From Actinomycetes bacterium (lineage in GTDB: Bacteria; Actinomycetota; Acidimicrobiia; Acidimicrobiales; Palsa-688), in assembly GCA_021850325.1 (NCBI GenBank), contig JAJZMF010000036.1, positions 1 through 64,000 on the forward strand: 64,000 bases of DNA. The letters run 5' to 3'. Positions within the stretch are counted from its first letter, which is position 1. Every line of letters begins with the position of its first letter. The translations under genes and the position numbers were made by a program. A model generated the notes under the pieces. The model saw nothing but the letters and a program-made list of their open reading frames with translations, was not told where the DNA came from and searched no databases. This document shows positions 37,001 to 39,134 of the stretch, in pieces.

Positions 37001-38482
37001 TTGGCAACGCTCTCGGAGCTGCTGAGAGACCGGGCCCATGTCCCCGAAGCGGTGGTCGACCACCTGCAGCGCCTGGTGGGGTCATGGGGGATCCTCTCCG
37101 ACCTGTCGTTCTCCGACCTCCTGCTCTTCGTCCCCCTTGCCGACGAGGGGTGCCGGTTCCTGGTGGTGGGCCAGGTGCGCCCGACCACGAGCCAGACCCT
37201 GCACCTGGAGGACCTCCTGGGCCAGGAGGTGGGGGAGGACGACCGGCCCCTCCTCTCCCGGGCCTGGGGGCTGGGAAGCGTGGTCGAGGGTGAGATGGCG
37301 GTGGCCAGCCGTGGGGAGAGGGCCAGGGTCGTCTGCATCCCGGTCCGCTACGACGGGGAGGTCGTCGCGGTGATGACCCGGGAGGCGCCGCTCGTGGTGG
37401 GTCGCCGGCCGGGCGAGCTCGAGCGGGTCTACGTGAGCGTCTTCGACCGCATGGCGCGCATGGTCACCGCAGGTTCGTTCCCGTTCCCTGTCGACGAGCC
37501 CCTCTCCAGCGAGGCGCCTCGGGTCGGGGACGGGGTGATGACCCTGGACGCCGCGGGGCGGGTGGAGTTCGCGTCGCCCAATGCTGTCAACGCCATGCAC
37601 CGCCTCGGGGTGTACCGGGGCATCCTGGGGGCGAGCCTGGAGGAACTGGGCCTCGAGCGATCACCCGTGCCCGTTGCCCTGAAGGAGAAAGTGCCCCACT
37701 CCGAGGAGCTCGAGCTGGGCGACGTGGCGGTCTTCATCCGGTGCATCCCCTTGGTGGACCAGGCCCGGGCGGTCGGGGCGCTGGTGCTCGTGCGCGACGT
37801 CACCGACATCAGGCGCCTCGACAGGCTCCTGCTGGGCAAGGACGTAGCCATCCGGGAGGTCCACCACCGGGTCAAGAACAACCTCCAGACCATCTCCTCG
37901 CTGTTGCGCCTCCAGGCCCGGCGTCTGCCCCGGGGAGATGCCCGTCATGCCTTGGAGGAGGCTGAACGCAGGGTCCGCAGCATCGCCGTGGTCCACGAGA
38001 TCCTGTCACGGGACACCACGGACGAGGTCGACTTCAACGAGATACTGCCCTCGTTGGCCCGCATGGCGGAGGACCTCTCCACGACCTCCTCCCCGGTCCG
38101 GGTCAGCTGGTCCGGTGAGCCGGGAGAGATGGGGGCACAGGTGGCGACCCCGCTCGCCGTGGCCCTCAACGAGCTCCTCCAGAACGCAGTAGAGCATGCC
38201 TTCCTCGGCCCCGACTACCTCGAGGGCAGGCGGCGGGCAGAGGTGCACGTCTCGTTCGAGAGACGCGGGGACGAGCTCCACGTTGAGGTCCGTGACAACG
38301 GGACGGGGCTGCCGCCCGGGTTCTCGGTGGACGAGACGACCAGCCTCGGCCTCTCGATCGTGCGGGGCCTGGTGAACAGCCAGTTGGGAGGCAGTATCAA
38401 GATGCGCGTCGACGGGGGCACCGTGGTCGACATGGTGGTGACCGTGAGCGAATCGGACCGGGTGGACCTCGCCCACATCTGA
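37001..38482 (+). CDS. pdtaS: PdtaS-like sensor histidine kinase
   Basis: Cytoplasmic histidine kinase, 493 aa, TTG start. An N-terminal GAF-like domain (about 10-165) and a PAS domain (about 175-275) precede a HisKA_2 dimerisation helix (REVHHRVKNNLQ, phospho-His near 287) and a HATPase with ELLQNAVEHAF and DNGTGLPPGF. This is the architecture of mycobacterial PdtaS, which phosphorylates the RNA-binding antiterminator PdtaR. No PdtaR gene is in the window. Its convergent neighbour is a WhiB gene, the same neighbourhood as whiB1-pdtaS in mycobacteria, which supports orthology. Confidence 0.9.
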   Translation: MATLSELLRDRAHVPEAVVDHLQRLVGSWGILSDLSFSDLLLFVPLADEGCRFLVVGQVRPTTSQTLHLEDLLGQEVGEDDRPLLSRAWGLGSVVEGEMAVASRGERARVVCIPVRYDGEVVAVMTREAPLVVGRRPGELERVYVSVFDRMARMVTAGSFPFPVDEPLSSEAPRVGDGVMTLDAAGRVEFASPNAVNAMHRLGVYRGILGASLEELGLERSPVPVALKEKVPHSEELELGDVAVFIRCIPLVDQARAVGALVLVRDVTDIRRLDRLLLGKDVAIREVHHRVKNNLQTISSLLRLQARRLPRGDARHALEEAERRVRSIAVVHEILSRDTTDEVDFNEILPSLARMAEDLSTTSSPVRVSWSGEPGEMGAQVATPLAVALNELLQNAVEHAFLGPDYLEGRRRAEVHVSFERRGDELHVEVRDNGTGLPPGFSVDETTSLGLSIVRGLVNSQLGGSIKMRVDGGTVVDMVVTVSESDRVDLAHI

Positions 38483-38552: not shown

Positions 38553-38843
38553 TCAGCCGGCCCGCCGTTGGCGGGCCAACCAGACCTTGCGCAGCTTGCG
38601 CCGCTCCTCCTCGGTCGTACCGCCCCATATTCCGGACTCCTGGTTGGTGGCCAGGGCGAACTCCAGGCAGCTGCTGCGGGCGTCACAGGTGTCGCAGACG
38701 GCTTTGGCGCTGACGATCTGCTCCACCGCAGGCCCGGTGCTCCCGACCGGGAAGAACAGGTCGGGGTCAGTGTCCCGGCACGCTGCCTTCTCTCGCCAGT
38801 CCTCGACGTCCCACTCGATGGTCCGGGTCCAAGTCAGGGCCAC
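38553..38843 (-). CDS. WhiB-family Fe-S transcription factor, WhiB1-like
   Basis: Redox-responsive [4Fe-4S] regulator, 96 aa, GTG start with AGGAGG 8 nt upstream. The four cluster Cys are at 22, 50, 53 and 59, the turn GIWGG at 71-75 and the basic C-terminal helix RRKLRKVWLARQRR binds DNA. Its position facing the PdtaS-like kinase suggests WhiB1, which in mycobacteria reacts with nitric oxide and is CRP-controlled. The upstream region carries a near-consensus promoter and two CRP-like palindromes. Confidence 0.94.
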   Translation of the reverse strand: MALTWTRTIEWDVEDWREKAACRDTDPDLFFPVGSTGPAVEQIVSAKAVCDTCDARSSCLEFALATNQESGIWGGTTEEERRKLRKVWLARQRRAG

Positions 38844-38909
38844 TAACTAATCCTCCTGGCGAGCCACAAGCACGACCGGGCCTCACGGCCCGAACAGGAA
38901 CCTGCTGCT

Positions 38910-38925
38910 TGTGAAAGTCTTCACG
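38910..38925. promoter_or_regulatory. CRP-like palindrome in the whiB leader
   Basis: TGTGA-N6-TCACG, 9 of 10 positions of the CRP-family consensus TGTGA-N6-TCACA. It is centred about 47 nt downstream of the predicted whiB transcription start, a position expected to repress. Confidence 0.55.
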
Positions 38926-38970
38926 TATCACGATTACGGGGAACCACTGACGTAAGTCGTGCGAACAGGC

Positions 38971-38998
38971 AGTATAGCCCCGGCCTTCTCGTGTGCAA
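38971..38998 (-). promoter_or_regulatory. whiB promoter
   Basis: TTGCAC (38993-38998), 16 nt, TATACT (38971-38976) on the minus strand, close to the housekeeping sigma consensus. Transcription would begin near 38964, leaving a leader of about 120 nt before the GTG. The rest of the 291-bp gap 38844-39134 holds only the two palindromes. Confidence 0.65.
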
Positions 38999-39059
38999 GG
39001 GTCTCTTGTCCCTGGCCACACCAGGTTTCTGTGGATTTACGCCTGCTCTTCCCCAGCCC

Positions 39060-39075
39060 TGTGCCATAGTTCACA
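39060..39075. promoter_or_regulatory. CRP-like palindrome upstream of the whiB promoter
   Basis: TGTGC-N6-TCACA, 9 of 10 consensus positions, centred about 103 nt upstream of the predicted whiB start, a usual activation distance. It also lies just past the diacylglycerol kinase stop. Confidence 0.5.
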
Positions 39076-39134
39076 CGGCGCCACTCCTGCAGACGCTCCG
39101 ACGGCGCGAGCCTCCGGGGCCTGATCGCCCGTGC

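Follow-up and report, generated by a model that had tools for sequence, protein, structure and literature searches.

WhiB1 is an Fe-S regulator that is essential in several actinobacteria. Control of its gene has been described in two systems close to the locus studied here. In Streptomyces avermitilis, Rex binds the orthologue wblE (=whiB1) at +108 to +135, downstream of the start site, represses wblE, and was proposed to do so by blocking the advance of RNA polymerase (PMC5355995). The Rex operator (ROP) consensus tested in that species is TTGTGAANNNNTTCACAA, from which the S. avermitilis sites reported deviate by one to three mismatches each (PMC5355995). In the open literature searched, that study alone gives a first-hand link between Rex and wblE/whiB1, and one other paper cites it. 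In M. tuberculosis, whiB1 is regulated by the cAMP receptor protein CRP (PMC3430963) through a site at -57.5, upstream of the start (PMC4117774), and no Rex homologue was found in mycobacteria (PMC2799521).

The window analysed here is a stretch of 64,000 nucleotides from a member of the class Acidimicrobiia. The features of its whiB locus are as follows.

37001 to 38482, plus strand: pdtaS-type sensor histidine kinase (PF12282 GAF_PdtaS, 113.5 bits; HisKA_2; HATPase_c)

38553 to 38843, minus strand: whiB1/wblE orthologue, 96 amino acids, GTG start (PF02467 Whib, 87.8 bits)

38852 to 38857, minus strand: Shine-Dalgarno sequence AGGAGG of whiB1, read directly from the sequence

38909 to 38926, minus strand: candidate ROP within the 5' leader of whiB1 (whiB strand ACGTGAAGACTTTCACAA, plus strand TTGTGAAAGTCTTCACGT), centred at about +47

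38971 to 38998, minus strand: predicted sigma-70 promoter TTGCAC-N16-TATACT, 8/12 consensus positions, with position and -10 element conserved in the family

39060 to 39075, minus strand: palindrome upstream of the promoter, reading TGTGAACTATGGCACA on the whiB strand, possibly a site for CRP or else a second, weaker ROP, 9/10 CRP and 10/14 ROP positions

The protein carries a WhiB domain, and among the Wbl paralogues of mycobacterial-type genomes its top match is WhiB1-like. Database relatives of the locus are metagenome-assembled genomes of Acidimicrobiia together with Acidiferrimicrobium and Aciditerrimonas. The initial annotation placed whiB next to pdtaS, and the domain matches agree with this, the two genes being convergent, tail to tail. 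A pdtaS-type gene adjoins whiB1 in M. tuberculosis too.

The promoter elements lie on the minus strand at 38998-38993 (TTGCAC) and 38976-38971 (TATACT), with a predicted start at about 38964. Among the 29 readable leaders of the window's family the -35 element begins with TTG in 27 and the -10 element reads TAnnnT in all. The claim that this is the strongest promoter in the window does not hold by consensus: with 3/6 plus 5/6 matches it falls under the scan threshold, and the window has two further places with 9/12. The promoter is nevertheless a plausible one, and it is bracketed, as described earlier, by two palindromes centred at about -103 and +47. Each palindrome agrees with the CRP-site consensus TGTGA-N6-TCACA at 9/10 positions; no other site in the 64-kb window attains 9/10 or more, whereas 11 sites reach 8/10. 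On the plus strand the downstream palindrome reads TGTGA-AAGTCT-TCACG (38910-38925) and the upstream one TGTGC-CATAGT-TCACA (39060-39075). In the leaders of relatives, conservation was borne out for the downstream palindrome, kept in 29/29 family leaders, but not for the upstream one, found in 5/29.

The downstream palindrome has the form of an 18-bp inverted repeat near TTGTGAA-N4-TTCACAA, and at 38909 to 38926 it matches the S. avermitilis-tested consensus at 12/14 positions, the only site in the window with at least 11/14. In the family its GTGA/TCAC half-sites are invariant, its spacer varies, and its distance from the -10 element is always 42-53 nt. The left half-site of the window's family is ACGTGA rather than TTGTGA; outside the family, in the class and the phylum, the motif lengthens to TTGTGAAC-N3-TTCACAA and reaches up to 14/14, and 69 of 79 Acidimicrobiia loci in the database score at least 11/14. 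The same 18-bp motif, there ATGTGAACGCTTTCACGA, lies inside the transcribed leader of the orthologous S. avermitilis wblE, some 43 bp ahead of the start codon. The Streptomyces site differs in its position (+108 to +135 and accompanied by an extra half-site, versus about +47 in the window, which is from a different class), and binding to it was demonstrated both in vitro and in vivo, together with repression of the gene. We regard it as quite likely that the downstream palindrome, in the transcribed whiB1 leader, serves as a Rex operator.

A conserved core with a free spacer, next to which RNA pairs neither form nor covary, is what would be expected of a DNA site bound by a protein. The palindrome could instead act as an RNA hairpin, given its position in the predicted leader and the possible pairing of GTGA with TCAC. 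However, only four pairs are invariant, the flanking and inner positions are mostly unpaired and without compensation, no Rfam family matches, and the same motif is present in rex promoters. A hairpin is thus very improbable, and it was rejected on the pairing counts and the Rfam result. As a separate matter, the leaders of the window's genus can form a long pairing, CACAAGCA...TGCTTGTG, between the ROP and the Shine-Dalgarno sequence (38844-38925 in the window); the family's other genera did not show it. BldD, whose half-sites are AGTGA/TCAC, was also considered as the binder and set aside, the ROP fit and the co-occurrence with Rex having made it unnecessary.

Rex is encoded in the same genome as a protein of 242 amino acids (G000:C25:161535; NF003992, 304 bits against a cut-off of 226) with matches to Rex structures in the PDB, and its gene is followed by one for a siroheme-synthase N-terminal protein. 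In most sister-family genomes examined an ROP, e.g. TTGTGAACAAGTGCACAA, precedes rex. This sister-family site, TTGTGAAC-N3-TGCACAA, has the same form as the whiB1 leader sites of several families; it differs in standing before rex itself, an autoregulatory-type arrangement absent from rex in the window's family, where no operator was found in front of the gene (L189:1438-2166, L167, L170, L176, L177, L179, L188 and L191). A weight matrix built from 29 rex-promoter sites, none of them from whiB1 or from the window's family and all chosen for how well they fit the ROP consensus, ranked 38909-38926 top in the window with 17.5 bits (runner-up 10.7), and the leader site was its best hit in 29/29 family leaders. 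The recognition helix is GVNAAQVRKD, with Q, in all eight family Rex proteins compared, and has K in the other class members compared. Set beside the operator change from TTGTGA to ACGTGA, the replacement of K by Q in the helix may represent co-variation of repressor and site.

The initial annotation had instead interpreted both palindromes as CRP sites, and an orthologue of CRP is indeed present (L001, 219 amino acids, PF00027 and PF13545), its closest solved structures being those of M. tuberculosis CRP (3mzh nearest). A second, short protein with a cNMP-binding domain, apparently without an HTH, is encoded about 3 kb from crp (L003:1501-1683). On such a reading cAMP-CRP would activate whiB1 from -103 and repress it from +47, and the cAMP-WhiB1 link known from M. 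tuberculosis would be ancient. This reading draws on the 9/10 match of each site, on the close resemblance of the recognition helices (GASRERVNKA here, GASRETVNKA in M. tuberculosis) and on the control of whiB1 by CRP in M. tuberculosis (PMC4117774, PMC3430963). The window gene and M. tuberculosis whiB1 are orthologous and both have TGTGA-like palindromes, but the mycobacterial CRP site is located upstream of the start, whereas the conserved palindrome of the window lies in the leader. Further, the Thr-Asn of the CRP C-helix aligns with Ala-Asp in the window genome's CRP, and its response to cAMP is therefore uncertain. An exact search for GTGA-N6-TCAC in the window's own genome gave 63 places against 15 for the reversed control and no clear CRP regulon; most of the 49 places inspected were in coding frames with GG/CC flanks. 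Palindromes with 9/10 matches upstream of crp were found nowhere in the window's family and rarely in the class.

Since CRP and Rex recognition have the TGTGA core in common, presence and absence across genomes were used to tell the two apart. CRP was mapped with the window genome's own protein (plus a looser pass) and Rex with PF06971 in the same 198 genomes of the class. A readable whiB1 leader was available in 61 other class genomes, 54 with and seven without Rex. A leader ROP of at least 11/14, expected by chance in 0.46% of shuffled leaders, was observed in 22/54 genomes with Rex versus 0/7 without, and one of at least 10/14 in 27/54 versus 0/7, i.e. only where Rex is present, in a Rex-less set that is small and partly related (four of the seven from one family). 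The corresponding Fisher p values, 0.042 at 11/14 and 0.014 at 10/14, are indicative only, as the genomes are not phylogenetically independent. In about half of the genomes with Rex the leader score stays under 10/14; Rex is therefore not sufficient for the site.

In contrast, the leader site was independent of CRP, with at least 11/14 in 13/38 genomes with CRP and in 9/23 without. Sites of 13-14/14 occur in genomes that have Rex and lack CRP (G154, G178, G210, G041, G047 and G098), while genomes with CRP and without Rex have no leader site (G059, G075, G107, G119 and G125). One of the latter, G125 of family f40, has lost Rex, and its site has collapsed to TTGTGAACGGTACAAGCC, whereas the site is kept in its three sampled family mates with Rex. 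Within the window's own family Rex and CRP are inseparable by co-occurrence, because CRP is also present in 30/32 genomes (the two misses are 59-61% complete). Across the class the evidence makes it unlikely that both palindromes are CRP sites. The ancient link to whiB1 proposed in the initial annotation is supported, with a probably different partner: the conserved site ignores CRP and is absent without Rex, and because it tracks Rex and matches both the sister-family rex operators and the proven Streptomyces wblE site, the partner is likely to be Rex, responding to NADH/NAD+, and not cAMP-bound CRP.

The upstream palindrome has to be considered separately. A division of labour, with Rex at the leader site and CRP acting as a class I activator from about -103, would be compatible with a Rex operator downstream. 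The upstream site is closer to CRP (9/10) than to the ROP (10/14), both regulators are encoded in the genome, and the site recurs in the five family leaders mentioned above (L004, L005, L006, L021 and L024), three from the window's genus and two from genus g11. On the other hand, it is missing from most of the family, its distance to the promoter differs among species and follows helical turns only roughly, and by the Rex matrix it ranks third in the window, which makes a second, weak ROP just as possible. We hold this division to be somewhat doubtful. Either way, the upstream palindrome would be a genus-level addition, as CRP site or as second, weak Rex site.

With Rex as the likely partner at the leader site, a mechanism can be proposed along the lines of S. 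avermitilis wblE, in which Rex would serve as a roadblock in the leader that is relieved by NADH. Binding, repression and the response to NADH are here carried over from Streptomyces and from Rex biology to the present organism. When NADH is low, NAD+-bound Rex would sit on the site about 47 bp past the start and block RNA polymerase, which would hold whiB1 at a low level. A rise in NADH, upon shortage of oxygen or another electron acceptor, would release Rex, and whiB1 would be made. The Fe-S regulator WhiB1 would thereby be coupled to the respiratory redox state. The Rex-whiB1 circuit, described from one Streptomyces species, probably extends to Acidimicrobiia and to the phylum.

No intact leader ROP was found in the mycobacterial-type genomes compared, only a degenerate look-alike, the best being TTGTGCACGCGTTAACAG (L397), and mycobacterial leaders may still hold a decayed ROP. 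Considering that mycobacteria reportedly lack Rex, have whiB1 under an upstream CRP site and show this degenerate look-alike, a handover from Rex to CRP is reasonable though unproven. We tentatively suggest, as a possibility that falls short of an even chance, that whiB1 was under Rex control in the ancestor of Actinomycetota and that in lineages losing Rex, mycobacteria among them, CRP took the gene over, a change eased by the near-identical TGTGA half-sites. If Rex was the original controller, the respiratory NADH/NAD+ signal would feed directly into WhiB1 across the whole phylum, and the cAMP-CRP control of M. tuberculosis would have replaced that of Rex secondarily. Actinobacterial TGTGA-N6-TCACA palindromes should be checked for Rex before they are called CRP sites.

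A genome-wide search at no more than three mismatches gave 14 ROP places against four in the reversed control, and a second clear Rex target was not found in the window's genome. The sole match better than the leader site, with one mismatch, lies inside a tusA-like gene in an apparent sulfur-metabolism cluster (L210:1501-1518; G000:C15:96692-96709) and is probably due to chance.

Some individual leaders deserve mention. Mycobacterial-type whiB1 leaders (L397-L400) keep upstream AGTGAGATAGCCCACG-like sites and have the degenerate ROP look-alike about 75 nt before the start. In the leaders L121, L148 and L294 an ROP-like TTGTTCAC-N4-TTCACAA is found farther upstream, at -136 to -184, which suggests that the operator or the promoter has moved. 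In another family of the class, L372 carries near-perfect Rex operators in tandem, TTGTGAATGTCTTCACAA and ATGTGAACGTATTCACAA, which lie 81 and 59 nt ahead of the aligned WhiB1 match.
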